This document shows positions 3 through 15,670 of a stretch of 64,000 nucleotides of DNA, one piece after another. Where the stretch lies: positions 2,836,001-2,900,000 of the forward strand of contig NZ_LT629689.1 of the NCBI RefSeq assembly GCF_900102035.1, read 5' to 3'. Every line of letters begins with the position of its first letter. The first letter of the stretch is position 1. The translations under genes and the position numbers were made by a program. The notes under the pieces are model-generated. The model did no database searches. It had not been told where the DNA came from and saw only the letters and a program-made list of their open reading frames with translations. This DNA comes from Pseudomonas extremaustralis. GTDB taxonomy: Bacteria; Pseudomonadota; Gammaproteobacteria; Pseudomonadales; Pseudomonadaceae.

Positions 3-431
3 GATCTAATGGATAAACTCAATCAGGAGATACTTCGCCTGGCAAACGAATTCGGTGCGCTCGGGCTTGAATCTATTGAGCTTGGCTCCGACGCGAAGAT
101 GGCAGTACGCAAAGGCAATCAGAAATCAGCGTTCAGCAGGCTGACTCCCGGTGAACGTCTCAGGCTGCGCATTGCTACAGCCATCGCGTTGTTACGCGTC
201 GGCCAGAATCTGGGCGTCGGGCGCCACCCTGGCCTGCTGATCATCGACTCACCCGGCTCCGAGGAAACCAGTGAGAATGATCTGGCAAAGCTTCTGACCG
301 AACTTCGGCGAGTAGCCAACGAAACGCAGGGCCTGCAGATTTTCATTGCGAGTGCGAACGCGCCTGCCGTACTCAAGGCGCTTGGGGAAAAGCAGTGTCG
401 TGTGGCTCCGGAAGGCGGCTATGTCTGGTAA
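3..431 (+). CDS. C-terminal part of an SMC/RecN-like ATPase (5' end outside window)
   Basis: The reading frame is open from the first bases, so this is the tail of a longer gene that begins to the left of the window. The visible part carries the end of an ABC/SMC-type nucleotide-binding domain. LTPGERLRLRIATAIALLRV resembles the ABC signature helix, and GLLIIDSPGSEE is a Walker B-like strand with acidic residues after it. FIASANAPAVLKAL resembles the following switch region. The Walker A motif and any coiled coil must lie upstream and cannot be seen. The stop overlaps the start of the downstream nuclease-like gene by 11 bp, which implies coupled translation and joint function. ATPase plus nuclease is a common layout for defence modules, but the family is not identified. 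Confidence 0.75.
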   Translation, partial: DLMDKLNQEILRLANEFGALGLESIELGSDAKMAVRKGNQKSAFSRLTPGERLRLRIATAIALLRVGQNLGVGRHPGLLIIDSPGSEETSENDLAKLLTELRRVANETQGLQIFIASANAPAVLKALGEKQCRVAPEGGYVW

Positions 432-2394
432 CCAGCAGCCTTGCTTGCTGGGTGCCATAGAGCAGCACCTGCAATCCGCGACGCCACTGACGATTGCGTC
501 GCTGGGAGGGATGGCAGCCTTGATGGCACAAGCGCAGTCGTTGGTGGAGTCGCCGTATCTTGATGTGCTCGCAGAGTTTGCAAACAGCGCGCTCCCAGAT
601 GAGTCGGCTGACATTGACAAGCTGCTGCTTCAAGGATTCGCGGAGTGTCAGGATCCTTGCGCCATACGTTCAGCGGCAGACATCGTCATCTGCAGCCCCC
701 CCCTCCGCCAGCGTATCAGCACCCGACTTGCTAGCGTACTGGAACAACGCATCGAATCTCAGACCACAAAAAAACAGGAGCTGATAGCCGCTTACGCGCT
801 TGAAGCATTGTTCCGCCTGGCTCTGGCATCCAGCATCTCAAAGTTCATACCGCTCAAGATCCTGGCCTGCATCAAATCCAACGCGAACAACCTGTATGCG
901 CAGCATGCGGCAAAACTAGCTGGCGTCGCCCTGTACGCCTGGCAAGAGCCAGAGCTAGTAGTCACCTTGAACGAGTTGCGCAAGATCGAGGATGCAGAGG
1001 GTGAGGCAGCCTTTGAACTTGCACTGGTGAGCCTATCCAAGGCTCTGGATGCTGGCTCCCTTGAGGAGATCAACCAGCATCTAGAAATCACTAAGGCTCT
1101 TTTGCGAGACGCCCAGGCAGTGGACGAGGACCGAGCTGATGCTGCGGCATATGCGGCAGTCGTAGACATCATTCGAGGATTCTCTACAGGTGCACCAGCG
1201 GAGTTCATGAATGAGCGCGCTGAGTCCCTAACCAGAGCCGTTCAAGACCGGAGACTCGCTCTAGGTAATCAGCACCTTCCAGATTGGCTCATGCCTCGAG
1301 CGGATCGAGAAATCCAATGGGTACGATTGATGAGATCAGTGCAGCAAGCATGCAGAGACTTAACACGTCCAAGCTGGCTAAAGGCGAGTGCCATCATCGA
1401 AAACCTGCTAGCGGTCTTTGATGCTGACCGCACCTTCGAAACCAAAGGTGGACTAGGCCAGCTTTTGCGCCCCCGGATAGAAGCCAGCTTCGTACGGGAG
1501 CGCGGGCAGCTAGCCCTTCTTGACGATCTTCTCGCTGAGCCCGACTGGGAGCCAGGACACAAGGATACCGCACGCATCCTTCGTGCTCGCATTGCGCAAC
1601 TGGAGGTCAATAATGTCGAATTGGGAAAGCCGTCGCCTAACGAAAGCTATCCGATGCTTCAGCAGTTGCTCAGAAGCCCTGAACTTCCGCCCGAGTGGTC
1701 TTCCGACGCATTGCATCGCATCGAAACAGCGCTGAATGATCGGTACGACGTATCGAATGATTTCAGCAACCCGGTGGTCCAGCGACTACTCAAGGGGCTC
1801 ACATCCCACCTAGAGGCCTGTCAAGACTATTCAGGGGAGGTCCGGATCCATTTCAACGAACTCCTTGCTCAAATTGTCCTCTTCTGCAAAACCCGTCAGG
1901 ATGGGGGAACCAAGGAGCTACGTGATCGAGGTAAGTATCTACGTGATCCAGCGGCAACAGAGTTCCAGCTGCAGCAAGATCTTTGGCAGTGGCTGTCTGG
2001 CAACTATCGAAGCTGTGAAATCCTGGACGAAGTAGAAGGTGTTGCAACAGGGCGGGCGGATCTCTATGCCGGATTCGGTGGCCATAGGCTCGTCATCGAG
2101 ATGAAGCGCCATCATGGACATCTGGACCGAGCGGCTGCGAGAACCTACTGCGATCAAGCCGCTAGCTACCAAAATACGAACGTGAAACTTGGCTTTCTGG
2201 GCGTCTTGGAGATTGTGGATCGCAAGGGTCCACCGCCCAGCCTGGAGGAGTGTATCTGGTACGATTCCGTCCTCCCCACAAACAGCAGCATTGTGCGTCA
2301 CCTTGTTGTTTTCAGAGTGCCAGGAAATCTCAAATCACCTTCGTCGATGTCCCTGAAGACGACCAAACCTAGAAAGAGAGCTGCAAGCCAGTAG
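421..2394 (+). CDS. Large helical protein with C-terminal PD-(D/E)XK nuclease-like domain
   Basis: About 657 residues if translation starts at the ATG at 421, which overlaps the stop of the upstream ATPase gene; the frame is also open a little further upstream. The first roughly 500 residues look almost wholly alpha-helical and match no family I recognise. The last ~130 residues read as a restriction-like nuclease fold: an N-terminal helix with EFQLQQDLWQWL, then GRADLYAGF (metal-binding Asp), then VIEMKRH (the E-x-K pair), then DQAASY on the following helix. I infer a DNA- or RNA-cutting effector driven by the upstream ATPase. The order of catalytic residues is seen; function in phage defence is inference. 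No signal peptide or membrane segment is seen. Confidence 0.75.
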   Translation: MSGNQQPCLLGAIEQHLQSATPLTIASLGGMAALMAQAQSLVESPYLDVLAEFANSALPDESADIDKLLLQGFAECQDPCAIRSAADIVICSPPLRQRISTRLASVLEQRIESQTTKKQELIAAYALEALFRLALASSISKFIPLKILACIKSNANNLYAQHAAKLAGVALYAWQEPELVVTLNELRKIEDAEGEAAFELALVSLSKALDAGSLEEINQHLEITKALLRDAQAVDEDRADAAAYAAVVDIIRGFSTGAPAEFMNERAESLTRAVQDRRLALGNQHLPDWLMPRADREIQWVRLMRSVQQACRDLTRPSWLKASAIIENLLAVFDADRTFETKGGLGQLLRPRIEASFVRERGQLALLDDLLAEPDWEPGHKDTARILRARIAQLEVNNVELGKPSPNESYPMLQQLLRSPELPPEWSSDALHRIETALNDRYDVSNDFSNPVVQRLLKGLTSHLEACQDYSGEVRIHFNELLAQIVLFCKTRQDGGTKELRDRGKYLRDPAATEFQLQQDLWQWLSGNYRSCEILDEVEGVATGRADLYAGFGGHRLVIEMKRHHGHLDRAAARTYCDQAASYQNTNVKLGFLGVLEIVDRKGPPPSLEECIWYDSVLPTNSSIVRHLVVFRVPGNLKSPSSMSLKTTKPRKRAASQ

Positions 2395-2481: not shown

Positions 2482-2602
2482 CTTCACCGCCACCCTCCCC
2501 TGATGCAACGTATCCGTCCGGCCAACTCACCTTCCGAACTCCAGCATTAAGGACGATGGTGTCCGCGTAAATATGATCTGACCCCGAAATGTTGGACGCC
2601 AT

Positions 2603-3439
2603 CTATGCCCGCCGTGCTTGAGTCCTGTATTCCACAGGGCTCAGGCCACTTAGCTTCAGCCTGATTCGCGAATGATTGTAGTAGTGTATGTAGTCCTCTA
2701 TACCTGCTTCAAGCTCATCGAGACTGTTGAATTTGTTCAGGTAAAAGAACTCGGATTTCAACGTGCCAAAAAAGCTTTCCATAGCCGCATTGTCATAGCA
2801 ATTTCCTTTGCGGGACATGCTTGGCTTTACCGCATGCTCGTTCAGTACGCGGCGGTAGATAGGCATCCGGTACTGCCATCCCTGGTCGGAATGCAAGATT
2901 GGTTTATCGCGTGGCCGCAGCCTCTCAAAAGCTTGCCGTAGCATCGCACCAACCATGTCGAACAGCGGGCGCCTCGCGGTCTTGAAGGCGATTATTTCGC
3001 CGTTATAGAGGTCAAGGATCGGCGAGAGATAAAGCTTCTGCCCCCCGACCCGAAACTCCGTCACATCGGTTACCCATTTCTGGTTCGGTCGTTTGGCATC
3101 GAACTTCCGTTTCAGCAGGTTCGGCGCTACCTGACCCTCTTCGCCTCTGTAGGCCCGGTATTTCTTTATGCGCACACGGCTTTTCAACTGAAGCTCGCCC
3201 ATGAGGCGCTGAACAGTCTTGTGGTTCACAAGATGGCCAGCTCGCCGAACGGCAGCAGTGATTCGGCGATAGCCATATCGGCCCTTGTGCTCGTCGAAAA
3301 TTGAGCGAATTCTGGACTTCAGCTCTGCGTATTTATCAACGGATTGCTGCACCTTTTGTTGATAATAAAAAGTGCTACGGGCCAGGCCAGCCAATTTCAG
3401 AAGGCCTTCCAGAGAGTGCTCCTGCCTCAGTTCAATCAC
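2603..3439 (-). CDS. IS3-family transposase OrfB (DDE catalytic part)
   Basis: Retroviral-integrase-like DDE transposase, 278 residues from a GTG that overlaps the orfA stop. An N-terminal helical segment (LKLAGLARSTFYYQQ) is followed by the rve core. The catalytic acids can be seen: Asp in WVTDVTEF, Asp in HSDQGWQY and Glu in ESFFGTLKSE. The frame is open upstream of the GTG into orfA (residues AQIV then IELRQE), so the active protein is probably an OrfAB fusion made by -1 frameshifting at the A-rich GAAAAAG near the end of orfA. Full length, with no inactivating change seen. Confidence 0.93.
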   Translation of the reverse strand: MIELRQEHSLEGLLKLAGLARSTFYYQQKVQQSVDKYAELKSRIRSIFDEHKGRYGYRRITAAVRRAGHLVNHKTVQRLMGELQLKSRVRIKKYRAYRGEEGQVAPNLLKRKFDAKRPNQKWVTDVTEFRVGGQKLYLSPILDLYNGEIIAFKTARRPLFDMVGAMLRQAFERLRPRDKPILHSDQGWQYRMPIYRRVLNEHAVKPSMSRKGNCYDNAAMESFFGTLKSEFFYLNKFNSLDELEAGIEDYIHYYNHSRIRLKLSGLSPVEYRTQARRA

Positions 3440-3972
3440 GATTTGCGCTTTTTCGGCTGCGCTGCTCGTTCCTTCACTTGAACCAAGGCATCGAGCTTTT
3501 TTAAATAAGCAATTTCCATCCGCAACTGGCTCAATTCGGCCAGCAAATCATCACGCGTACGAGCTTCATCGTCCGAAGATTCAAGCTGAATGGACGGGAT
3601 GGGGTTTGTCATTTTTTTGTGAAGTCCGCTTGCTGGCTGCCGGGACAAGGCCTCCAAACCGCCTTCATCATACCTGCGCTCCCATTCGCCAATGATGTCG
3701 GATTTCCGGATATCAAACAGGGCAGCGACTTGGCGATAGGACAGCTCTTCCTCTCGCATACGCTGCAATACATTCAGCTTGAACTCAGGGCTGTAGTTCT
3801 TCTTTCTCTTACTTTTGAGGCCTGCGGCACCAAGCGCCTGATATGCCGCAATCCACTTTCGAAGCGAAGAGGCATTGACCCCGTGACGATGCGCGACCTC
3901 TCTGTGACCTGCGCTCCCCGAACAGTAATCTTCAACAACCGACAATTTCGCCTGCTCTGTGTACTTTTTCAT
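3436..3972 (-). CDS. IS3-family transposase OrfA (helix-turn-helix)
   Basis: DNA-binding partner of OrfB, 178 residues. There are two helix-turn-helix units: near the N-terminus (AHRHGVNASSLRKWIAAYQ) and near residues 70-90 (SYRQVAALFDIRKSDIIGEW), which is the double-HTH layout of the IS150 group. A C-terminal stretch (ELSQLRMEIAYLKKLDALVQ) looks like the leucine-zipper dimerisation segment of IS3 OrfA proteins. The slippery GAAAAAG lies five codons before the stop, where IS3 elements shift frame into orfB. Confidence 0.92.
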   Translation of the reverse strand: MKKYTEQAKLSVVEDYCSGSAGHREVAHRHGVNASSLRKWIAAYQALGAAGLKSKRKKNYSPEFKLNVLQRMREEELSYRQVAALFDIRKSDIIGEWERRYDEGGLEALSRQPASGLHKKMTNPIPSIQLESSDDEARTRDDLLAELSQLRMEIAYLKKLDALVQVKERAAQPKKRKS

Positions 3973-4126
3973 GACACCCCTGGATGTTGATGTCCAACAT
4001 TTCGGGGTCAGATCAATACGCGGACACCATCGTCCTTAATGGTAACCGATCCATCACTCACACATTCAAAGCCGCCCATTGAAGCCCGATGCTGCGCTCC
4101 CGATCTCTTTCTGGAGCCAGCACCTC

Positions 4127-4486
4127 ATGATGCGTCCCGACGCCAAAGTCGAAAAAGTTTACCTTTACCCCAAGTCCGTGGACTTCCGAAAATCCATCGA
4201 CGGCCTGGCCGCCCTGGTCGAGCTGGATATCAAGGTGGCCGTCTTCGACCCGGTACTTTTCGTTTTTCTGAATCGCTCCCGCAACCGGGTGAAAATCCTC
4301 TATTGGGAGCGCAACGGCTTCTGTCTTTGGCTCAAGCGCCTGGAATCCGAGCGTTTCAAAACCTCGCCCCACGTCACCGACGAAGCCATCGTATTGAGCG
4401 TCCAGGAACTGAACTGGTTGCTCGACGGTTTTGACCTTTGGCGCAACCGCCCTCATCAGGTTTTGACCCCACGCTACGTAGCCTGA
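4127..4486 (+). CDS. tnpB: IS66 accessory protein TnpB
   Basis: About 119 residues. The core YLYPKSVDFRKSIDGLAALV followed by FLNRSRNRVKILYWERNG is the standard TnpB (IS66 Orf2) pattern, ending with a conserved LLDGFDLW. The frame is open from 4079, but the family start is normally MMRPDAK, so I place it at 4127. The biochemical role of TnpB is not settled; it is known to be needed for IS66 transposition. Confidence 0.9.
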   Translation: MMRPDAKVEKVYLYPKSVDFRKSIDGLAALVELDIKVAVFDPVLFVFLNRSRNRVKILYWERNGFCLWLKRLESERFKTSPHVTDEAIVLSVQELNWLLDGFDLWRNRPHQVLTPRYVA

Positions 4487-4504
4487 CCCGGTATAATCCG
4501 GGCC

Positions 4505-6049
4505 ATGATTTCCCTGCCCGACGACCTGCCTGATGATCCTGTTTTGCTCAAGCAACTGCTGCTTGAGGCACTCAGTCGCCAGGAAGAAGTGGCCCAGGCT
4601 TATCAAACCCACATCGTCGACCTGAAAGAGCAGATCAAGTTGCTGCGCGACCGCTTGTTCGGGCGCAAGTCCGAACAGACTGTCGAGCCCAACACGCCGC
4701 AACTGGCGCTGTTCAACGAGCCCGAAAGCGAGCCGATGCCGCTCGTTGATGACCCTGACGAAGAAGCCGTTGCGCCGACGCCGCGCCGTGGCAAGCGCAA
4801 GCCGTTGTCGGCCGATCTGCCGCGTATCGAAATCATCCACGAACTGCCTGAACACGAACTGACCTGTGCCTGCGGTTGCCGCAAACACGCCATCGGCGAA
4901 GAAACCAGCGAACAACTGGACATCGTGCCGATGCAGATCCGTGTCATCAGGCACATCCGCAAGGTCTACGGTTGCCGGGGCTGTGAAACTGCACCGGTCA
5001 CGGCTGACAAGCCTGCTCAGTTGATCGAAAAGAGTATGGCCAGTCCCAGCGTGCTGGCGATGCTGCTGACTACCAAATACGTCGATGGCTTGCCGTTGCA
5101 CCGGTTTGAAACCGTGCTCAGCCGACATGGCGTCGAGATTGCGCGCCAGACGCTGGCGCGCTGGGTGATCCAGTGCAGCGAACACTTCCAGCCACTGCTG
5201 AATTTGATGCGCGACCGCTTGCTGGAAAGCCCGGTGATCCACTGCGATGAAACCCGCGTGCAGGTGTTGAAGGAGCCGGATCGTGACCCGACCAGTCAAT
5301 CCTGGATGTGGGTGCAGGCCAGTGGCCCACCGGACAAGAAAGTCGTGCTGTTCGACTACACCTCCAGCCGAGCGCAGGATGTACCGTTGCGTTTGCTGGA
5401 CAGCTATCGCGGCTATGTGATGACCGATGATTACGCCGGCTATAACGCCTTCGCGTTGCAGCCGGGCGTGGAGCGACTGGCATGCATGGCGCATGCACGC
5501 CGCAAGTTCGTGGATGCGCAAAAAGTGCAGCCTAAGGGTAAAACCGGGAGGGCTGATATCGCGCTGACGATGATCAACAAACTGTACAGCATCGAACGCG
5601 AATCCAAAGACGCCAGCGATGAACAACGGTTTATCGCTCGTCAGGAGAAGAGCTTGCCGATCCTGGCCCAACTGAAAAGCTGGCTGGCTAAGACCCAATC
5701 CCAAGTGACGCCGCAAAGCGCATTAGGCAAGGCTGTGCACTATCTGGCGAATAACTGGAACCGACTGGAGCGCTATGTCGAAGCGGGTTATTTACCCATC
5801 GACAACAACGCCGCTGAAAGAGCGATCAAGCCGTTTGTGATCGGACGCAAAGCTTGGTTGTTCAGTGATACCGTCAACGGCGCCGCCGCCAGCGCAAAGA
5901 TTTACAGCTTGGTCGAGACCGCCAAGGTCAACGGCCAGGAGCCCTATACGTGGCTGCGCCACGTACTGGAGCGGTTGCCATATGCCTCGACGGTCGAAGA
6001 CTACGAAGCCTTGCTGCCGTGGAACTGCTCACCGGAGATGCCACGGTAA
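4505..6049 (+). CDS. tnpC: IS66 transposase TnpC
   Basis: 514 residues, full length for the family, 18 bp after tnpB. An N-terminal leucine-rich coiled coil (about residues 15-50) is followed by a Cys-rich zinc-ribbon-like segment (CACGC and CRGC, about residues 120-160) and the DDE core: the [11 protein letters not shown]sp, the MTDDYAGYN Asp and the Glu in [16 protein letters not shown]. The C-terminal IS66 domain ends with [11 protein letters not shown]. No frameshift or stop is seen, so the element could be active. Confidence 0.93.
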
Positions 6050-6102
6050 ACCGTTGACCCACCTTGGGATAGGTGGGGTTTATGGATCGCTTACCCTTAA
6101 TG

Positions 6103-6398
6103 CTGGAGTTCGGAAGGTGAGTTGGCCGGACGGATACCCTTTAGCGACCGATAAAAATGTTATGGCACAGCCACTCATGGCGGGCCTCAACGGGTCCTTT
6201 ACCGACCTTAAGCATAGGCAGCAAGCGGCCAACAACTGCCGCGTATGGAGGTGACGCCCTTGTTGAAGGGCGTCGGTCAGTCATTTGATACCTCCCGAAG
6301 TCTTCCGGCTGACACACCACCTTCAACAATGCGCCAAGGTTAGGGAGGCCCAAAGAAAATCCAGGTTCTGACCAGTTTCCTGCGAGAAGTTGACAAAC
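6103..6398. other. Intergenic stretch with a hairpin, between IS66 and the GTPase operon
   Basis: The first 35 bp are the end of the palindrome arm. After that I see no gene. At 6253-6274 there is a perfect 9-bp stem (GACGCCCTT / AAGGGCGTC) with a 4-nt loop and no T-run. It may act as a weak terminator for the minus-strand operon ending at 6399, but it is too far away and too poor in T to be sure. Confidence 0.4.
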
Positions 6399-9038
6399 TT
6401 AAAAACTCGGTCCATCTGATAACGAGTCATCGCGAGTCAGAAATCTCAATGCTCCTCGGATTTGGTTTGACCATGGATTGGGGATGAGTAATAGATCGCG
6501 TTCAATCTCTAAAATTCGCTGCCCTCCCCCAGCTTGTTCAGCGATGCGATGAAGTATCTTGTCGAGATCTCCTGCACGTGCGGCAGCCAGCGCTATGTCC
6601 GTAGCGCGCCAATTTGAATGCATAAACGCATCTACCAAATGATGGCGCGCAGTTTTGCACTTGTCCCAATCAGCGAAAAGAAAAAACTTCAGGATGTCAG
6701 GTGCGTTATTTTCTTTCATCAACAACTTGTAAACTGGTGGAAATGCAGCCGCTATCAGTGGCGAAACAGGATCGTGCCTCGCTTGCAATAGGAATGGCAT
6801 TAACGCCGCAGATGCGTCGAGAAACCCGCGCTGGTGGCGGGCACCAGAATCCCAAAGCAAGTTGGCCGCATCCAAGACCGCCGACTCCGGATAATCAATT
6901 CGTCCTCTCGCGATAATAGCTGTAGCAAGTTCGGGAATTGCAGACATTATTTGCTGGCGAACTTCACTCGATGAATGATTAAAGGCTGATAAATGCCCTG
7001 CAAATACATTAGCCGATGTCTTCCTGTTCAATCCAATGAAGATAGCTCTGCGCCCGTCCAGGCAATCACCGGCGGTCTGAAGTAACAATGCTAATGCAGT
7101 ACTGTCAACCTCACCCGCTTCGCGCGCTAGAATAACCTCCACCGCGCGCGAAGCCAGCCTTGCGACATCATCACCAGCTGCATATGGCAGCAGATGCAGC
7201 GTCATATTGATCGTTGAAGACGCAGACAGAACATTGGCGTTCAGGATCCGTTTAACAATATCGACGTTTTCACTAAGATCCTTCATCAATAGTTCTAACA
7301 CGTCAGCTTCGTTCACACCTCCGAGCATAGATCTTAGTTGACCTAAACTGGCTGACTGCAACAATCGGGATACATGTTGAAGCCGTCGCTGATCCGTGAT
7401 CAGACTAAGAGTCATCATCCATTCGAGGTCTTCCCTGACTGGCGCTATAAGATGAGTAAGGAGCGCATCTGCTCCCGCACTCTCTGGAAAACTAGCGGTC
7501 AGGGTGCGTAAAGGAGATAGTGCGCCTATTTCCTTTGCCCTTTCAGCCAAAGGTCGGTGCAGGCTCTCAGCAGCGAGACGGTTTGCCTCAAAGAGTAAGC
7601 TGGTTTCCGCCAACAGTTCTTCTTCATCAAGTTCAGCGATCAAGGACCGCGCGGCCGGAGCATATAGTTCTTCGACTAAGTATTTCAGAATACGCCGCGT
7701 CGCTAAGTCACGAGTTGATTTCGATGCGTTAGCAATTGCCGTCGCAAGCGGTTCTGAGAGGCTCGGAAATTTTTTTAGGGCCACTTTAGAGAGCGGGGAG
7801 CTTAGCAATAAGAGTTGAAGTACATTCGCCGGCTGAAGCGCGGCTATCCCTTCAGCAACATCAGTGTCAAACCGCTGGGACAATCCGTCTCCAATCGCAC
7901 CAATCAGCAGCTTACGACCTCGACTAGAAGCAAGCATTTCGACACTGCGAATAGCATCGTTTGGGGACTTCGCGGCTAAGTTCATCGCCGCATTCCGGAT
8001 AGCCTTGGCCGATGAAAGCTTTAGCCGTACGCCATTCAGCTTTTCCGTAAGTGCTAATAAAAAGCGCCAAGCGTCGGTGGACGGGAGCGTTTCAGCGGCA
8101 CGTATTGCCGCACTACCGAGTTCCGGCTCAAGTCGCTTAATTGCCCTGATATTACGAGGAGATCGGCTATTTGCAATGTCCAACAGTCCCAATGCTGCGT
8201 TGGGTGAAACTTCCAGCTTTTCGTACAGCTCGTTCCAAAGAAGAGATATCCTCAAATCCGCCTCGGTTCCACCTTGAGCTGTCGATAGCTCACCCAACAC
8301 GTCGTCGCTCAGCAGAACAGGCGGCTGATCCTGAAATACGCTCTGCACAATTTTTCGAGACCATCGGTGACGGCCTTCAGCAAAATTGCGCCCATCAATG
8401 CGACGACCCGGCCAATCACTGAAGCGAGACCTGGCATTCTTGGGCGCGAACACTAGGTCAAAGCTGATGCTGCCGATGGATCGAGGTGATAGAGCAAAAG
8501 TGGAGACAGCAAATCTTGTTCGCAAAGACGGCCATAGCGCTGTCAGAAGCCGAAGCGTAATTCCTTCCGGCTTAGAAGCGTCGAAAACGACAATCGGTTT
8601 ACGATCCTCAAGGAACAACGCTTCGACCAATTCGATGCATTCAGAGGCGTCAACTGACGCAAACGTACCAGTTTCTCGAGCAAGATGAATTCGCTTAGCG
8701 GGCGCAGTGGGTCCTTCGAGAGTAAGCGATTTAACCAATGCCAGAATGTCAACATTAGTGGTCCAATCCGGTACCGGAATGAAATAACTTCGGGTTCGAA
8801 CACAACCCGCTCTCGGCGCATCCAAGTCCTGCCATGTTCGTGCAATGACGTAGTACGATCCCGATGGAAGTGGGTAGCAGGTGAGGTAGGAATCAAAATG
8901 CTCGCCAGGTCGAAGCGGTCCGGCCACGTCAGATAGGCGGTCAACCAAATCCTGATCGGCCTTTGACAGCTTGGCCGAAGAAGAGAGGAGCTGATGCCCA
9001 TTACGGTAGCCATGTAGCTGCTGATCTAAAATTGTCAT
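6399..9038 (-). CDS. GTPase-associated protein 1 (GAP1-type), large helical protein
   Basis: About 879 residues from the ATG at 9038, 4 bp after the stop of the upstream GTPase gene; a TTG at 9056 is the other possible start. The N-terminal ~150 residues match the pattern I know for GAP1-N: DQQLHGYRNGHQLLSSS, then LTCYPLPSGSYYVIARTW, then RAGCVRTRSYFI. The rest is a long, leucine- and alanine-rich all-helical region of repeated helices. No enzyme motif is seen. In Pfam this family is described as the partner of double GTPases in predicted conflict systems. It is the last gene of the operon. A scaffold or sensor role is inference. The reading frame is intact. Confidence 0.8.
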   Translation of the reverse strand: MTILDQQLHGYRNGHQLLSSSAKLSKADQDLVDRLSDVAGPLRPGEHFDSYLTCYPLPSGSYYVIARTWQDLDAPRAGCVRTRSYFIPVPDWTTNVDILALVKSLTLEGPTAPAKRIHLARETGTFASVDASECIELVEALFLEDRKPIVVFDASKPEGITLRLLTALWPSLRTRFAVSTFALSPRSIGSISFDLVFAPKNARSRFSDWPGRRIDGRNFAEGRHRWSRKIVQSVFQDQPPVLLSDDVLGELSTAQGGTEADLRISLLWNELYEKLEVSPNAALGLLDIANSRSPRNIRAIKRLEPELGSAAIRAAETLPSTDAWRFLLALTEKLNGVRLKLSSAKAIRNAAMNLAAKSPNDAIRSVEMLASSRGRKLLIGAIGDGLSQRFDTDVAEGIAALQPANVLQLLLLSSPLSKVALKKFPSLSEPLATAIANASKSTRDLATRRILKYLVEELYAPAARSLIAELDEEELLAETSLLFEANRLAAESLHRPLAERAKEIGALSPLRTLTASFPESAGADALLTHLIAPVREDLEWMMTLSLITDQRRLQHVSRLLQSASLGQLRSMLGGVNEADVLELLMKDLSENVDIVKRILNANVLSASSTINMTLHLLPYAAGDDVARLASRAVEVILAREAGEVDSTALALLLQTAGDCLDGRRAIFIGLNRKTSANVFAGHLSAFNHSSSEVRQQIMSAIPELATAIIARGRIDYPESAVLDAANLLWDSGARHQRGFLDASAALMPFLLQARHDPVSPLIAAAFPPVYKLLMKENNAPDILKFFLFADWDKCKTARHHLVDAFMHSNWRATDIALAAARAGDLDKILHRIAEQAGGGQRILEIERDLLLIPNPWSNQIRGALRFLTRDDSLSDGPSF

Positions 9039-9042
9039 GATT

Positions 9043-9894
9043 TCATTGGGCGCCAATCGCCCAAGCTACAGGTATTGTGACATCAGCATCTTGATACCAT
9101 GCGCCATCACGCTCGAGAGTAACGGAACCACTCTCAGCCATGATCATACTCTGATATTTTTCCTGAAAGTCAGGGTCGTACTGCAGATCTCCGCCCACGA
9201 TGCTGACCCCGTAGACTCGCGCCTCGACTCGCCGAGCATCCTCTAGCGCCCCAGCAAATAATGGAAATTGCTTACGTAAATAGGCCTGCGGACCAGCTTC
9301 TTGGCTAGCAGCGTCTAACTTATCCCAAGCAGTCACAACAATGGCCACTCGTGGTTTTTTACCATCTGGTCTCATAGAGAGACGCTGCTGCAAGAGACGT
9401 AAGAGCTCACAAAGAATCACTTGAGTAGGCAGCTCCACCTCCTCGTTCCCCTCTCCGATGAAGCTAAGGGCACTTCGTGTGGCCACCCAGTCGAGCGGTT
9501 GCACGTTCAGGGGTGAAAGTACTCGCACAAAGAGCAGCGCACCCTCAGCGCTCTCCAACGTGTCCAACCATTCACGTGGGATGTCTGAGTTTTTCACAGC
9601 GTCTCGCCAAAGCTCACCAGTAAAATCCGGGACGATTAATTCAGTCGGATTATTACTCTGCTCAAGTTTGAGCGGTACACAAAAATCCTGCCGCTCAGTA
9701 TTGGTATCCGTTCGACCAGCGAATTCGCCTTGAAGCAAGTTTTCGCAGATGCTCTCTACATACTCAATATTTTGCGGCATACCTGCGCGTTGCAGTTGCC
9801 CTTTGCCAGCTTTCAGCGCGGCCCAAAGCCTCCCTACGTAATTGCTCTTACCGGAGTCAGGCCCGCCTACAAGAATTATAGACTTCCGATTCAT
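9043..9894 (-). CDS. Double-GTPase system, GTPase 1 (DO-GTPase1-like)
   Basis: 283 residues from the ATG at 9894. That ATG forms an ATGA overlap with the stop of the next GTPase gene, and this decides the start; the frame runs 20 codons further upstream. The P-loop is GGPDSGKS (residues 10-17) just after a hydrophobic strand. DFTGE (residues 90-94) fits the G3 D-x-x-G, and VVTAWDKLD (about 186-194) fits a G4-like element without the classical NKxD. No membrane segment is seen. The pair of divergent GTPases in one operon is the hallmark of the double-GTPase conflict systems. Nucleotide specificity is assumed from the family. Confidence 0.82.
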   Translation of the reverse strand: MNRKSIILVGGPDSGKSNYVGRLWAALKAGKGQLQRAGMPQNIEYVESICENLLQGEFAGRTDTNTERQDFCVPLKLEQSNNPTELIVPDFTGELWRDAVKNSDIPREWLDTLESAEGALLFVRVLSPLNVQPLDWVATRSALSFIGEGNEEVELPTQVILCELLRLLQQRLSMRPDGKKPRVAIVVTAWDKLDAASQEAGPQAYLRKQFPLFAGALEDARRVEARVYGVSIVGGDLQYDPDFQEKYQSMIMAESGSVTLERDGAWYQDADVTIPVAWAIGAQ

Positions 9895-10949
9895 AAATTC
9901 TTTCCGAAGTTGAGAAACGCCCGATGCGAATTTGACGCTTGGTCCATAGGCCATGGATCCGGAGTTTTCTCTGAAAGCTTAAGCGACCGACTAATTAGCT
10001 CAGCAAAACCAGAACCCGGTGCTACTTCGTGACTCTCAGAAAAAGATGCGATCGAAGCAAGCTCAATCTTGAAACCAAATTCTCCGCCCGAGTCCTGCAC
10101 GCGCTTTAATACCTGCTCAGGGATGCTTCCGCTGTCTCGCCAACTGGCGACGAGAATAATTTTTGGCCGTGAGACTGGAAGCAGCAAAGAAAGACGCTCG
10201 AGGAGATTCGTCGTCCTATGGATTGCCAGTTCGCGAGTTTTAACGTCAAGAAAGTCTCGGCCGTTCACCATAATCCAAACAACCTCGGCGGCCTGGAGAA
10301 AGGTGAATCTCTCTGAATCGCCAGATTGAATCAGGCTCCGAGACCATTCGCCTGGGAGGTCAGGCATCAAAACATCGAATTTGTGAGCGTCTGAATGGCG
10401 TCGCAACCTCAGATGTAAAAAGCCCGCCTGCCTGTCATCGGGCAGTTCTGTATGGACCGTCATCTGTCTAGGAGGACGGCCATCATTCCAGCGTCGTGAA
10501 CCGCGGGAAATCTCCTCCAACGCCATGAGCGTCATGCTATCTGCATAGCTGAAGCCCTCGAGGGAGTCATGAGCCAGTTGTAGATAAAGGCTTGCAATAC
10601 AGGCTGTTTTACCGGCATCGGGTAGACCAACAATGCCGATCAGGTTGACGTATCTCTCGCTCATCAGTAGATCAGCCTCTGCTAATCCAAGTGTGCCACT
10701 GCGTGGCAACTGAGCCTTGTGCATGGGCGCATTTAGGACGGCCTCACCTAGACCAAGGTCTGCCTTAATTTCATAGACCGTCTTCCCCTCATAATCGGTG
10801 CTCGTCTCATCCCTCAAGAGGTCCAAATCGTCAGTCACGGACAAAAATGCGTGATGAGCTGGGCACTCCTCAAGCGTGGCATAGCTCTGCATGCATACCC
10901 CAGTCTGTGAGTATGTGCATTCCGGGACTGTACACACTGGCTCGGTCAT
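9891..10949 (-). CDS. Double-GTPase system, GTPase 2 with N-terminal Cys cluster (DO-GTPase2-like)
   Basis: 352 residues. Four N-terminal cysteines (C6, C11, C19, C29) with spacing that could bind zinc precede the GTPase domain. The P-loop is GLPDAGKT (108-115), and D-L-P-G-E-W at 197-202 matches the G3 loop of the same family. VASWRDS (about 267-273) stands where the G4 specificity loop is expected and lacks NKxD. It begins in an ATGA overlap with the helical-domain gene and ends in another with GTPase 1. It differs clearly from GTPase 1 in sequence, so this is not a recent duplication. Confidence 0.82.
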   Translation of the reverse strand: MTEPVCTVPECTYSQTGVCMQSYATLEECPAHHAFLSVTDDLDLLRDETSTDYEGKTVYEIKADLGLGEAVLNAPMHKAQLPRSGTLGLAEADLLMSERYVNLIGIVGLPDAGKTACIASLYLQLAHDSLEGFSYADSMTLMALEEISRGSRRWNDGRPPRQMTVHTELPDDRQAGFLHLRLRRHSDAHKFDVLMPDLPGEWSRSLIQSGDSERFTFLQAAEVVWIMVNGRDFLDVKTRELAIHRTTNLLERLSLLLPVSRPKIILVASWRDSGSIPEQVLKRVQDSGGEFGFKIELASIASFSESHEVAPGSGFAELISRSLKLSEKTPDPWPMDQASNSHRAFLNFGKNL

Positions 10950-11980
10950 AGTCCGTTGGCCGTCCCTTTACGCAAATGCTGAATTGCCCCCTCCAGTAAT
11001 GCGCGGCCCCCCCATTCCCAAGCGGTCCTCTTTTCCTCCGATGCGCAAGCATCAGTACTCCCGGTTTTAATCGCCGCCATAAGCGGAAATACCGCGGATT
11101 CATCAGCCTTAATCGAACCAAAATTTGTGGCTAATTTAGTACGGCGCTCACCTAAAAGCTCGATAAGCTCCATGAGTGACAACGGTTCGCCATTCTCAAT
11201 ATTACGCAGAACGATGTTGCGGTGAGCGTCTGCTGGAAGTCTTCTCAATTTGAGCGCCCCATCCAATCCGGCGGCGACGGCGCGAACTGCACCCGGCAAG
11301 CTATCGAGCGGCTCGTCCAGCAACTCGCTCCGCCCGGAGAGGAGCCACCACATAAAGTCCAGCTCTTCACGGTCGAGTACAGCATTTTCACGCATCGCCG
11401 AGATCATTGGCTCTACGGCCTGGCTAAAGGCTTTATTGACTCTAGACGGCTGTGTTGAATCCTGACTGATGGACACGAGACCGATTGATGGCACCGTCTG
11501 CCGCGCACGCGCGGCATCGGCAATTTTCAGCGCATGCGTGCGGCTGGCTGTCAGCAAGTCTTGACGAAGGCGTTCAACCTTCTCCAATTCAAGAGGGCGC
11601 TGAAACGCAAGGGCTGACCAGAAGGCCGCCGCCAGAGCATCCACCGAAGTTCCACCGCTTTTAGCAGTGACACTTTGAAAAACGTCGATTGCGGCGACTG
11701 CCAAAACCACCTTGATTTGCAGATCATCTGGATTAGCGGACCGAACAAATGAGACAGCATGCCGCTGAATTATTTCTTCACCAATGACTGCAATTTCATC
11801 GGGAAGACATGTGCTGGTGCCGAATGAGGATGAAATACGACTCGCCGTACTAATGGCCAAATCCGGGGTGAGACTTTCAAACCACGCTTTGATTTCAGCC
11901 ACAGCTTTTAATCGTTTCTCCACCAATCCGTCGTCAGTACCAGTATCAAAAATACGAGCATATTCGGCCATGTTGCTCAT
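10946..11980 (-). CDS. GTPase-associated system helical protein (GASH-like)
   Basis: 344 residues, predicted all-helical, with no enzyme motif, signal peptide or membrane segment. The segment ELDFMWWLLSGRSELLDEPL and the following LPADAHRNIV fit the GTPase-associated system helical (GASH) family as I recall it. It sits between the metallophosphoesterase and the two GTPases, with ATGA overlaps on both sides, so translation is coupled. Base composition is less GC-rich than the core genes to the right. An adaptor role linking phosphoesterase and GTPases is inference. Confidence 0.75.
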   Translation of the reverse strand: MSNMAEYARIFDTGTDDGLVEKRLKAVAEIKAWFESLTPDLAISTASRISSSFGTSTCLPDEIAVIGEEIIQRHAVSFVRSANPDDLQIKVVLAVAAIDVFQSVTAKSGGTSVDALAAAFWSALAFQRPLELEKVERLRQDLLTASRTHALKIADAARARQTVPSIGLVSISQDSTQPSRVNKAFSQAVEPMISAMRENAVLDREELDFMWWLLSGRSELLDEPLDSLPGAVRAVAAGLDGALKLRRLPADAHRNIVLRNIENGEPLSLMELIELLGERRTKLATNFGSIKADESAVFPLMAAIKTGSTDACASEEKRTAWEWGGRALLEGAIQHLRKGTANGL

Positions 11981-13320
11981 TGATTGTCCTTGTTGGTTTT
12001 ACGCTTGGTGAGGGCTTCTTCCACCTTTTCGCGCAGTTGATCGAAACGATTCATTTTAGCGATATTTCGGAAAAGTTTGCTTTCCGTCTCGTGAGTAAAA
12101 TGATCCATATTTTCATTAGGTACGGCGTCAAGCTCCACCAAAATACGAAGTCGTTCGCCCTCTGTAAGATCGCGGAAGAAACGCAAATGGAGATTCTGAT
12201 ACTCCGTCTCATCAACGCGCGAGTTGCCGGCCATCTCTTCCTCCGGCGGTAAGATAATCTCGACCGGCGCCGGCTCCATATCCTGGCCTGTTTTGACCCT
12301 GGTGCCGATGGAAGGCCTTGTTGCCTTAAGAAAATTGGGTGAACCTAAAACGGTTCGTTGCCCATGCCCACCAAGACGCATATCGTCCGACTCGAACCGC
12401 TTCATGTCGTCGTTCCATGCTCGGGCGTACAGTGTTACGGCAAGAGCATCGTCGTTCTCATCCCAGTCAAACTGGATAATGTTGTAAGCATAAGTGTAGG
12501 TGTCATCGAAGCTATCAGGTGTCGTAGCTCCAGCGGCAAGCATCATGAGGTCGCGCCCAGGTTCTACGTTTTGGACATCTACTGCTGCCAGGTGCTCATG
12601 GCCGGAAATGAAAACTCGAGCTCGGCTTCTTAAGAACCTCTTGGTCTCAGCCGAGTCGGCGTACCAATCAAGTGGATGATGAGTTAGCACCACCAGCTCT
12701 TCGCCGATCGCCTCATTCATAACCCGCTGGCGGGCTCCCAGAAGCAAATTTCCCTTTTCGTCTTTACGCCTCGAACAAATCAAAGCGGAGTTTAGTCGGA
12801 CAAAGCGAATCGCTCGTCCATTGGCGAGCTCCACCCTACGCTCTGCACTGCTATTGCCGCTGCAGTCGAGCGGACACTGGTAAGCGTCGGCGAAGCGTCG
12901 GTACTCTTCAAAGCGACGATAAAGGACCTCTCTTGCCACCGCCTCTTCAAGAAAGTCATCCAGCTTCGCTTCACCTTCGTTACCGATCGCCGCGAGCATC
13001 ATTTCAGTCAATCCTTTGATCTGATCTCGATCGACATCGTGATTTCCTGGGACCATTTGAATATCAGCTGCCGTACAACCAACGCGGGAGGCAAGTTCAT
13101 CAAGCCACAATCCAGCTGCGTCATACTCATGACGTTTGCCCGCATATGCGATGTCTCCCGTCACTAAGATGCCCGAAGCTGTTCTGGTAGGTAGTGTAGC
13201 CACGTGTGCGGCCGCATCTTCGATTAACTGCCTGCGAGCGTCCTCGTTGACTATCCGAATGCTGCTAGCTTTTTCTTGTCCGAAGTGAATATCGGAGAGG
13301 TGGATAAATACGGCCGCCAA
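11977..13320 (-). CDS. Metallophosphoesterase with C-terminal adaptor-like domain
   Basis: Calcineurin-like metallophosphoesterase, about 447 residues from a TTG at 13320, and first gene of the operon. The metal-binding motifs appear in order: D-x-H in HLSDIHFG (residues 10-12), GDI (Asp 56), GNHD (92-95), the His pair in LTHHPLDW (about 214-215) and SGHEH (about 239-243). After a linker, the last ~70 residues (RFFRDLTEGERLRILVELD onward) look like a small helical effector-associated or GAAD-type adaptor domain. The catalytic part may be the effector of the system, cutting a nucleotide or nucleic acid; substrate unknown. The frame stays open to 13419, but the Shine-Dalgarno supports the TTG. 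Confidence 0.82.
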   Translation of the reverse strand: MAAVFIHLSDIHFGQEKASSIRIVNEDARRQLIEDAAAHVATLPTRTASGILVTGDIAYAGKRHEYDAAGLWLDELASRVGCTAADIQMVPGNHDVDRDQIKGLTEMMLAAIGNEGEAKLDDFLEEAVAREVLYRRFEEYRRFADAYQCPLDCSGNSSAERRVELANGRAIRFVRLNSALICSRRKDEKGNLLLGARQRVMNEAIGEELVVLTHHPLDWYADSAETKRFLRSRARVFISGHEHLAAVDVQNVEPGRDLMMLAAGATTPDSFDDTYTYAYNIIQFDWDENDDALAVTLYARAWNDDMKRFESDDMRLGGHGQRTVLGSPNFLKATRPSIGTRVKTGQDMEPAPVEIILPPEEEMAGNSRVDETEYQNLHLRFFRDLTEGERLRILVELDAVPNENMDHFTHETESKLFRNIAKMNRFDQLREKVEEALTKRKTNKDNQ

Positions 13321-13326
13321 ACTGAA

Positions 13327-13332
13327 CTCCTT
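13327..13332 (-). promoter_or_regulatory. Shine-Dalgarno AAGGAG that sets a TTG start
   Basis: On the minus strand AAGGAG is followed by 6 nt and then TTG (13320), directly ahead of the first conserved strand of the metallophosphoesterase. No comparable site is seen for the longer frame. Confidence 0.75.
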
Positions 13333-13860
13333 GTTTGCCTCACGCAACTGATGTGAAAGGGGCTGGAAGACTGTCCTTGCGCGCGATCTCAACCCTAGGC
13401 GGTACTTGGTTGTACCCAACAGAGCTGTAAAACGGGTCAGTCGACGCCGAAAAGGTCACCTAGGGAGTAACGGAAAATGAATCGAAGCTAGCAAAATGCT
13501 ATACCCACGTCCACCCGTGGTTGCTGCTGATGGTTGCGGCTCGCTGAGCGGGATCATGCTTGATCAGCCCTCTCCACGTCACGCCGCTGAAACTGCGTGA
13601 TACCTAATACCTCTGCCGGCCTGAGAGATTGTCTGAATGGCCTCCGCAGCAACCGAGACTATCACCCGCCAATACCCATCCCCCGGTGCTCGCCTCTCGG
13701 ACCTCCGATATGGGCAATGCAGTAGACGAACGCACTTGCCACTTCAGAGCATCGCCTTGGCACGGAGAGCCTCCGGACATGAGATCAGAACACAATTGCG
13801 CCTTCGGAATGGCAACGCTATCCAGATCCAAAATATCCGTGGGAGTATTTTTTAGACATG
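13333..13860. other. Intergenic region between integrase end and GTPase operon
   Basis: About 530 bp with no convincing gene on either strand. It must contain the promoter of the minus-strand GTPase operon, but I could not pick a clear -35/-10 pair. Short open frames here lack ribosome binding sites and recognisable products. Confidence 0.5.
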
Positions 13861-13888: not shown

Positions 13889-13901
13889 AAGTCATAGAAT
13901 A

Positions 13902-13945
13902 TGGCCGGGACGGAGTGATTCGAACACTCGACCCCCTAGCACCCG
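13902..13945 (-). other. 3' half of a tRNA (tRNA-Pro-like), probable attachment site
   Basis: On the minus strand this reads as the 3' part of a tRNA: a complete T arm GAGTG TTCGAAT CACTC, then CGTCCCG as the 3' acceptor strand, a discriminator G and CCA. No matching 5' half (CGGGACG, D arm, anticodon arm) precedes it; instead the integrase stop codon lies only 7 bp away. It resembles the 3' end of Pseudomonas tRNA-Pro as I remember it. A tRNA 3' fragment touching an integrase gene is the usual form of an att site left by a tRNA-targeting island. The direction of the island is unresolved. Confidence 0.65.
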
Positions 13946-13951
13946 ATACTA

Positions 13952-15265
13952 TTAATCAGCCGACTCCCGCTGTGCACTCAGACACCCCATTGAAATTCGC
14001 CCGGTATGCGGCATGTATGCTTCGGGCGTAGGCGGAGAAACGCCGCCCTCTAGCGCATCTAATAAATCCGCCCAATATTGCATCATCCTACGTCTCGGCT
14101 CGACGTATTCTGCATGATTGTATGCAGCCCGAATTTGGTTGGTATCAGCGTGTGAAAGCTGCGCCTCAATCCACTCTTCTACAAAGCCAACCTCATTAAG
14201 CGCCGTGGAGATGGTAGCCCTGATGCCATGACCGGTGAGCCTTCCTTTGTAACCCATACGGCTAATCGCGGTGTTAAGGGTATTTTCACTGATCATTTCC
14301 TGCGATTCGTATCGGTGAACCAGCAGGTACCGCGCACCGCGCGCCCTTAGCTGCATTAGCCGCTGCACAATTGCAATTGCTTGGGTAGACAGTGGAATTA
14401 CATAAGGTGGGATCTCATTCCCCTGGGTTCGAACACGACTCCGGAGTTGCTTGACACCCTCCGGCGGCACCAGCCAGATCCCCTTGTCGAGGTCGAATTG
14501 GTCTGGCGTCGCCGCACGTAGCTCTCCTGTACGCACCCCTGTCAACAGCAATAGACGGATACCAAGTCGTGTCGCTTCTGCACACCCATAGTTGGTTACG
14601 GTCCTTAGCAGTCCTGGAAGTTCATTTACCTGGAGGAAAGGATTATGGCGAACTGGCCGCGGCGTCTCGGCAACGATATCAAGATCTGCTGCTGGGTTCA
14701 CATCAAGGAGCCCTTCCGCCATGGCAAAACGGAAGATCTGGTTGAGCCAGGTGCGCACCTTTCGAGCAGAGACCAGCGCCCCTCTGCGCTCAATTCGCCT
14801 AATGAGCTCCAGCACGTCACCACGAGAAATATCTGAGATCGGAAGATCGCCCAAACACGGCAGCATGTCCTTCTTCAGGTATTTGCTCGCTTGCCCTGCA
14901 CTGCCCCTCTTACTTTTCGTCAGCTTTTTACTTCGGAACTCATGCCAGCGACCAGCAACCGCTTCAAACGTGTTGTTGGCGGCGTGAGAGGCTTTTTGGC
15001 GCTCGGCGCGACGATGTGAGCGGGGATCGATATTGTTGGCCACCAGCGCGCGTGCAGCCTCTCTCCGCTGGCGAGCCTCCTTGAGACTGACGTCGGGATA
15101 GATGCCAAGGGAAATACGCAATTGCTTGTCATGCCAATAGAAGCGGAAATGCCAGCGCTTCGAACCCGTCGTGGGCACTTGCAGAGATAAGCCATCCCCA
15201 TCAGTTAACGTGTAAGGCTTGCTGGCGGGCTTGGCTTGCTTGATCGCTGTATCTGTCAGAGCCAT
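13952..15265 (-). CDS. Tyrosine recombinase / island integrase (P4-type)
   Basis: 437 residues. An N-terminal DUF4102-type arm-binding domain (YTLTDGDGLSLQV, SLGIYPDVSLKEAR) is followed by a SAM-like core-binding domain and the catalytic domain. Catalytic residues seen: Arg245 in TGVRTGELR, His346 and Arg349 in GHGIRATIST, His372 in QLSHAD and Tyr382 in AAYNH. The ATG at 15265 has a strong Shine-Dalgarno (AAGGAGGTG, 6-nt spacing). It lies between the tRNA-Asp terminator and a tRNA 3' fragment, and marks the accessory region to its left as island-like. The frame is intact. Confidence 0.93.
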   Translation of the reverse strand: MALTDTAIKQAKPASKPYTLTDGDGLSLQVPTTGSKRWHFRFYWHDKQLRISLGIYPDVSLKEARQRREAARALVANNIDPRSHRRAERQKASHAANNTFEAVAGRWHEFRSKKLTKSKRGSAGQASKYLKKDMLPCLGDLPISDISRGDVLELIRRIERRGALVSARKVRTWLNQIFRFAMAEGLLDVNPAADLDIVAETPRPVRHNPFLQVNELPGLLRTVTNYGCAEATRLGIRLLLLTGVRTGELRAATPDQFDLDKGIWLVPPEGVKQLRSRVRTQGNEIPPYVIPLSTQAIAIVQRLMQLRARGARYLLVHRYESQEMISENTLNTAISRMGYKGRLTGHGIRATISTALNEVGFVEEWIEAQLSHADTNQIRAAYNHAEYVEPRRRMMQYWADLLDALEGGVSPPTPEAYMPHTGRISMGCLSAQRESAD

Positions 15266-15451: not shown

Positions 15452-15498
15452 ATTTCCGTAGCTTCCAGGCGTTCAGTGGGCCTTAGTGGAAGCAAATA

Positions 15499-15575
15499 TG
15501 GCGCAGCGGACGGGACTCGAACCCGCGACCCCCGGCGTGACAGGCCGGTATTCTAACCGACTGAACTACCGCTGC
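15499..15575 (-). tRNA. tRNA-Asp (GTC)
   Basis: 77 nt on the minus strand. Acceptor GCAGCGG pairs with CCGCTGC, the anticodon is GTC in CCTGTCACG, the T loop is GTTCGAGTC, and CCA is encoded. Second gene of the tRNA-Val/tRNA-Asp operon, 19 bp after tRNA-Val. Confidence 0.97.
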
Positions 15576-15594
15576 GCGTAACACTTGAAGCGAA

Positions 15595-15670
15595 TGGTGG
15601 GTGATGACGGGATCGAACCGCCGACCCTCTGCTTGTAAGGCAGATGCTCTCCCAGCTGAGCTAATCACCC
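15595..15670 (-). tRNA. tRNA-Val (TAC)
   Basis: 76 nt on the minus strand. Acceptor GGGTGAT pairs with ATCACCC, the anticodon is TAC in CCTTACAAG, the T arm contains GGTTCGATCC, and CCA is encoded. Confidence 0.97.

Follow-up and report, generated by a model that had tools for sequence, protein, structure and literature searches.

An intact DO-GTPase conflict system of the GAP1-N1 type and GAAD-metallophosphoesterase lineage in Pseudomonas extremaustralis, a candidate for phage defence

The 64,000-nucleotide stretch of the Pseudomonas extremaustralis genome analyzed here (contig NZ_LT629689.1, positions 2,836,001 to 2,900,000; hereafter the window) carries a 6.9-kb operon on its minus strand, from position 13320 to 6399. 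Its five genes encode, in this order, a metallophosphoesterase (MPE) with a C-terminal GAAD domain, the helical protein GASH, the two GTPases DO-GTPase2 and DO-GTPase1, and a large GAP1 protein of the GAP1-N1 type, all assigned by Pfam with scores above the curated cut-offs (Table 1). Three junctions are ATGA overlaps (11977-11980, 10946-10949 and 9891-9894), a 4-base gap precedes the ATG of GAP1 at 9038, and none of the five frames contains an inner stop. The MPE gene starts with a TTG at 13320, with AAGGAG just upstream, and the MPEs of the closer relatives that were aligned begin at or near this position. With 51.6%, the G+C content of the operon is lower than the 61.1% of window positions 16001-64000. 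The host genome contains a single GAP1-N1 match and a single full-length DO-GTPase1 match, a second, weak DO-GTPase1 match being DO-GTPase2 itself.

Table 1. Position and basis of assignment of the operon genes and of features in their vicinity (window coordinates; ORF, open reading frame; aa, amino acids).
Feature	Position	Strand	Basis
Metallophosphoesterase (calcineurin-like, MPE) with C-terminal GAAD, 447 aa, TTG start; presumed effector	11977..13320	-	Pfam PF00149 (Metallophos, 45.3 bits, cut-off 21.5) and PF19976 (GAAD, 73.3 bits, cut-off 23.6), in ORF 11977-13419
GASH, all-helical, 344 aa	10946..11980	-	Pfam PF19994 (103.9 bits, cut-off 27)
DO-GTPase2, 352 aa, N-terminal four-Cys	9891..10949	-	Pfam PF19993 (219.7 bits, cut-off 27)
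DO-GTPase1, 283 aa	9043..9894	-	Pfam PF19975 (268.1 bits, cut-off 27), in ORF 9043-9954
GAP1 (GAP1-N1 type), 879 aa, without EAD1 tail	6399..9038	-	Pfam PF20012 (116.9 bits, cut-off 27; no EAD1 match), in ORF 6399-9053
Tyrosine integrase of island	13952..15265	-	Pfam Phage_integrase, Arm-DNA-bind_3
tRNA-Asp, adjoining integrase	15499-15575		
21-bp att-like repeat at tRNA-Asp 3' end	15495..15515	.	Exact copy 150 kb left, G000 2701428-2701448
ORF holding LmuA of complete Lamassu	346..2394	+	PADLOC

The original prediction, made from the raw sequence, had described five minus-strand genes joined by three ATGA overlaps and one 4-bp gap, and their coordinates, order and junctions are borne out. Its five family assignments likewise hold against the Pfam models, so that the possibility of a match to ordinary, unrelated families falls away, and the same is true of the intact appearance of the copy, the neighboring integrase and the lower G+C content than in the core genes.

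Judged by sequence, the operon is a complete and intact representative of the GAP1-N1-type DO-GTPase conflict systems and belongs to their GAAD-MPE lineage. GTPase-centric conflict systems of the GAP1-N1 type were predicted from sequence by Kaur et al. in 2020 (PMC7159879), and because the kind has been published, the system is not new. In the account of Kaur et al., MPEs of the calcineurin type are the most frequent effectors and GAAD is an adaptor; they describe coupling by direct fusion, EAD1 and GAAD side by side, and stress the variability of the effectors. Those of their features that can be read from sequence were all found here, namely GAP1-N1, two paralogous DO-GTPases, a zinc-ribbon-like N-terminus, GASH, the G3 Glu and a GAAD-coupled effector. 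The earlier designation as a predicted biological-conflict system therefore agrees with a published kind, whose defence role is likewise a prediction.

The presumed effector has a fully conserved active site, with the 13 metal-binding and catalytic positions (DxH, GD, GNHD, HH and GHxH) invariant in 49/49 MPE proteins. These and the motif counts for the GTPases and GAP1 include the protein of the window, and the near-duplicate loci L055, L074 and L083 (L numbers denote our loci) were removed before the MPE and GTPase counts and before tree construction. Comparison with the NCBIfam model DS8_antiphage (NF053861) aligned residues 7-290 to the N-terminal domain of DS-8 (E 7.1e-39), covering profile positions 1-273 of 994 with 133.3 bits against a whole-protein cut-off of 790, and a weaker match was obtained to DS-9 (E 3.4e-18). 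By this comparison, the MPE domain is homologous to the metallophosphatase domains of DS-8 and DS-9, which provides the strongest outside link to function, although the likeness to DS-8 informs the function of the MPE part only. Mutants of the predicted catalytic residues of DS-8 and DS-9 lose phage defence in E. coli, and the same study likens DS-8 to SMPDL3A, an enzyme that cleaves cGAMP (PMC13092281).

Both GTPases contain the P-loops and G3 motifs that had been noticed at the outset: GGPDSGKS and DFTGE in DO-GTPase1, GLPDAGKT and DLPGE in DO-GTPase2. Across the relatives, GK[ST] of the P-loop is kept in 64/66 DO-GTPase1 proteins (1 gap, 1 SKT) and 63/64 DO-GTPase2 proteins (1 gap), and DxxGE in 65/66 (1 ExxGE) and 61/64 (2 ExxGE, 1 gap), respectively. 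We read the Glu of this G3 motif as the conserved Walker B/G3 Glu meant by Kaur et al. The observation that both proteins lack a classical NKxD stands with regard to the replacement of N and K (TAWD in DO-GTPase1, SWRD in DO-GTPase2), but a missing G4 does not follow from it, as the Asp is kept in 66/66 DO-GTPase1 and 64/64 DO-GTPase2 proteins; the alignments indicate a variant rather than an absent motif. In DO-GTPase1, it takes the form xWD (W in 64/66, Y in 2), and in DO-GTPase2, xKxD occurs in 17/64 proteins, with H, R, W or Y at the K position elsewhere. The two GTPases of the window are 21% similar over 154 columns. DO-GTPase2 has a zinc-ribbon-like N-terminus with Cys 6, 11, 19 and 29, which corresponds to the predicted zinc ribbon of the published type; four such Cys are found in 58/64 proteins, including that of the window, and the remaining six include truncated frames.

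GAP1 was modeled by AlphaFold2 from 62 sequences (pLDDT 88.6, pTM 0.59), resulting in an N-terminal alpha/beta part up to about residue 240 and a predicted alpha-solenoid spanning residues 259-873, for which fold searches returned HEAT/ARM-type matches. In 65 GAP1 proteins, Arg76 and Gly78 are invariant, and Asp37 varies once. The N-terminal domain of the model runs strand-strand-helix-three strands-helix, an order which we take to resemble that of the longin domain; however, a profile comparison of GAP1-N1 with Robl_LC7 gave a probability of 0.1%, and the fold searches were filled by the solenoid. A proposal that we regard as quite improbable is that GAP1 would act as a GTPase-regulating scaffold like the eukaryotic longin/DENN regulators, with Arg76 as catalytic arginine for a DO-GTPase heterodimer carrying a switch Glu instead of Gln, with the HEAT-like solenoid sensing the invader, and with the nucleotide state of the GTPases licensing the GAAD-tethered phosphoesterase. 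Infection would in this case register as a shift in that state, comparable to the way in which Rag GTPases read nutrients. The AlphaFold2 model of GASH is nearly all helix (mean pLDDT 89.8), and fold searches with it gave no recognized fold.

A hidden Markov model (HMM) of GAP1-N1 found matches in 7/398 genomes of the genus, 3/390 genomes of the order (one below the cut-off) and 4/398 genomes of the phylum, each time including the window's own, as well as in 1/385, 3/200 (one below the cut-off) and 1/78 genomes of three further sets, with the centre genome counted in each. A scan seeded with DO-GTPase1 yielded 48 loci in named genomes, 39 of which encode MPE, GASH, DO-GTPase2, DO-GTPase1 and GAP1 in identical order (one of these, L070, has a GAP1 truncated at the end of its contig). 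The homologues therefore do co-occur as an operon, which the original prediction had named as a point on which it could fail. Among the other nine loci, L048, L057, L061, L064 and L069 start near a contig end, L078 is without a recognized GASH, L077 has DO-GTPase1 only, and in L062 and L065 DO-GTPase2 was probably hidden by ORF picking. The complete operon order occurs in Alpha-, Beta- and Gammaproteobacteria, Bacteroidota (L068) and Planctomycetota (L079). Of the 42 loci with an MPE, 41 also have GAAD, L079 being the exception. Furthermore, relatives occur in 19 plasmid records, 13 of them predicted conjugative plasmids. A 161-aa gene with an N-terminus that appears hydrophobic by eye and no Pfam or PADLOC match lies directly before the MPE gene of Pseudomonas sp. 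ANT_H4 (L008, 1000-1485); it is possibly an extra component.

A tree of 64 concatenated DO-GTPase1 and DO-GTPase2 pairs places ten rows with EAD1 on GAP1 (L010-L013, L034, L089-L091, L095 and L096) on a single branch (SH-aLRT 99). As effector, six of them have caspase-EAD1, three have PNP-type phosphorylase-EAD1 (two called by HMM, L090 by Pfam) and one (L091) has an EAD1 protein without an assigned type. In 48 of the 54 non-EAD1 rows, an MPE lies next to the core, and another recognized effector was found in none. The six rows without an adjacent MPE are L048, L061, L064, L069 and L086, which begin near a contig end, and L094 from Aliivibrio, in which an IS30 insertion separates MPE-GAAD from the rest. 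This copy, on a plasmid of Aliivibrio salmonicida (L094, 4407-11626), has the insertion apparently within GASH and adjoins rdrA and rdrB of RADAR. The adaptor state changes once on the tree and the effector type three times (L090 counted without an assigned type). In our reading, GAAD and EAD1 coupling split by core lineage, with the GAAD side over-sampled, since most rows come from the scan seeded with a window-like DO-GTPase1 (alignment A2), and nine (L008-L013 and L032-L034) from the search with the GAP1-N1 HMM. Of the HMM matches, L035 (a 3.7-kb contig) and L084 were left out, as were L019 and L085, which score below the cut-off. The tree was built by a quick method, long branches were flagged, and the bacterial classes are mixed on it, a pattern that horizontal transfer would be expected to produce.

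EAD1 tails on GAP1 were assigned with our own HMM at E <= 0.01. The Pfam cut-off for it is passed by L010, L013 and L034, whereas L090 reaches 19.8 bits against 24.2 and L091 gives no match, its small EAD1 gene scoring 23.3 bits, just below the Pfam cut-off. The records of L089 and L095 themselves name EAD1 on GAP1, and the calls for L011, L012 and L096 are those of our HMM. L096 (KF114878.1), named as a Leptospira phage, carries the EAD1/phosphorylase-type version beside an integrase gene and is apparently a phage-borne defence. A rule that pairs GAAD with MPE, and EAD1 with caspase or phosphorylase, predicts swappable parts.

With regard to its surroundings, the window operon is flanked by the integrase on one side and by insertion sequences (2510-6137) on the other, where an rve-type (IS3-like) transposase element at about 2574-4015 and an IS66 transposase lie inside perfect 43-bp inverted repeats. 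Beyond these, a complete Lamassu system was identified by PADLOC (LmuA E 1e-190, LmuB E 9.6e-207, LmuC E 3e-82, on L014), with LmuB ending at window position 431 and LmuC and most of LmuB lying left of the window. Before Lamassu, L014 encodes a STAND-type protein of 1984 aa (L014 1356-7310; genome 2827356-2833310, left of the window). It contains an AAA/NACHT region that matches PADLOC Avs1b over residues 264-590 (E 1.8e-26), has only a weak Effector match in its N-terminal part, and may be a new Avs-like variant.

The att-like repeat at the end of tRNA-Asp recurs 150 kb to the left (Table 1), and six of ten ORFs sampled between the two copies match conjugative-element families (PFGI-1-class relaxase, ParB, TraD, TraC, TIGR03746 and TIGR03755), the remaining four being ParA, topoisomerase III and two without a match. 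Therefore, the operon probably belongs to the cargo of a PFGI-1-class conjugative island, close to its integrase end. We are unsure about the exact left end of the island, because the segment 2701-2743 kb is barely covered by family assignments (one ORF, near the outer edge, with no match) and because 3 kb beyond the left repeat there is a second complete tRNA-Asp/tRNA-Val pair (genome 2698318-2701448; the other pair at window 15495-15670), so that a tRNA pair stands on either side of the 150-kb region. Just past the integrase stop, at 13898-13924, a minus-strand sequence resembles a tRNA 3' end and is partly tRNA-Asp-like, perhaps a second attachment site or the remnant of another element.

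This setting raises the question of whether the operon serves competition between mobile elements, such as plasmid or ICE (integrative and conjugative element) exclusion, or stabilization of the island, rather than mainly acting against phages. The conjugative-element genes, the large share of predicted conjugative plasmids among the plasmid records and the EAD1-type copy in the Leptospira phage record would all fit such a role. Mobile carriage is general for defence genes, however, the neighboring genes match anti-phage families, and Pfam recognized no antitoxin-like partner among the five genes of the operon, a dedicated antitoxin search not being part of the analysis. We therefore consider this explanation distinctly unlikely.

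Instead, we favor as the probable reading that the operon is an anti-phage system and forms part of the defence cargo of a conjugative island, the MPE being licensed by the two GTPases on a scaffold of GAP1. This reading is based on the five family assignments, the published prediction, the kept operon order and invariant MPE site, the homology of the MPE to the DS-8 and DS-9 domains, Lamassu and the Avs1b-like gene in the same island, RADAR beside the Aliivibrio copy, the patchy occurrence in the genus and the plasmid-borne copies. As to complex formation, trigger, direction of the switch and substrate, we infer the following course. The two GTPases would pair into a heterodimeric nucleotide switch that docks on GAP1 by way of its GAP1-N1 domain, with GAP1 as scaffold and probable sensor and GASH as a structural or regulatory partner; the GAP1 solenoid, GASH or both may sense infection or hold the complex together. 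The GAAD tail would tether the MPE to the complex and keep it inactive until a trigger shifts the GTPase state and frees or activates it. The MPE might then cut a phosphodiester, in nucleic acid or in a nucleotide signal, and thereby block the phage or stop the growth of the infected cell.

Also in favor of this reading, the flanking ORFs of the relatives matched 116 PADLOC families compared to 10 in control regions (E <= 1e-10; 127 ORFs each, from 133 selected among 202 flanking ORFs with six dropped by hand, and from 128 control ORFs), a contrast that counts families, several of them redundant, against controls that are not taxon-matched and stem mostly from Pseudomonas; the most frequent single family was found in 4/127 flanking and 3/127 control ORFs. 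These limits weigh against an anti-phage role, and so do several other points. None of the five proteins has a match to a named PADLOC system: the MPE hits the candidate PDC-S60 and the generic Effector model, and DO-GTPase1 gives a chance-level match to Csx3. No experimental study of any DO-GTPase system was found in the literature searched, which included few subscription journals, and bioRxiv only as PMC copies. Moreover, one protein of the DO-GTPase family has been tied to psp operons of Gammaproteobacteria, with a predicted role in membrane-related stresses (PMC11237479), and the linked phosphoesterase could equally remove a signal.

The psp link would suit an ordinary envelope-stress or housekeeping GTPase module. 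For such a module, a presence in only 7 of the 398 genomes of the genus, the lower G+C content, a place on a mobile island with defence genes and the caspase effectors of the sister systems would be hard to account for, and we regard it as extremely improbable.

In the chief alternative, the MPE would clear a signal instead of attacking nucleic acid or the cell: as a brake rather than a lethal effector, it would destroy the nucleotide messenger of another system or trim a ligand of GAP1 or GASH, and the operon would tune other defences. Kaur et al. list a calcineurin-superfamily phosphodiesterase of vWA-MoxR systems among cyclic-nucleotide-cleaving enzymes (PMC7159879), which together with the comparison of DS-8 to SMPDL3A and the presence of Lamassu and the Avs-like gene in the island lends this idea some substance. 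Yet no cyclase turned up in the scanned genes of the operon and its neighborhood, the effector role in the sister systems is apparently held by caspase or phosphorylase domains, and the phosphoesterase mutants of DS-8 and DS-9 lose rather than gain defence, and we thus consider a brake unlikely.

Should these operons be immune systems, licensing of an effector through the GTP state of paired GTPases would represent an uncommon route in bacteria. The window copy, being intact and compact, having clear residues to mutate and stemming from a Pseudomonas whose relatives include laboratory species such as P. putida, is well suited for testing the anti-phage reading.

Among known systems, DS-8 and DS-9 share with the window operon a homologous metallophosphatase domain that is needed for their defence; however, DS-8 is a single MPE-NACHT protein, DS-9 pairs its MPE with a HAD phosphatase, and the paper contains no mention of GTPase, GASH or GAP1 (PMC13092281). 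Lamassu (LmuA/B/C) shares the island with the operon, but its proteins are unrelated, and it is a separate system two insertion sequences away. Closer are the EAD1 sister systems of other Pseudomonas, plasmids and a phage, which have the order GASH, DO-GTPase2, DO-GTPase1 and GAP1-N1 in common with it. They differ in lacking the MPE, in carrying EAD1 both on GAP1 and on the effector, which is a caspase, a PNP-type phosphorylase or, for L091, a protein without an assigned type, and in a longer GASH, and the core proteins of L010, L013 and L034 are 14-26% identical to those of the window. With the systems described by Kaur et al., finally, the operon shares all five components and the adaptor mode, that is, two DO-GTPases, one of them with an N-terminal zinc ribbon, GAP1-N1, GASH and a calcineurin-type effector with GAAD (PMC7159879). 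There is no difference of kind, and what is added here is the placement of GAAD and EAD1 on two sides of the tree, with an MPE as every readable effector on the GAAD side.

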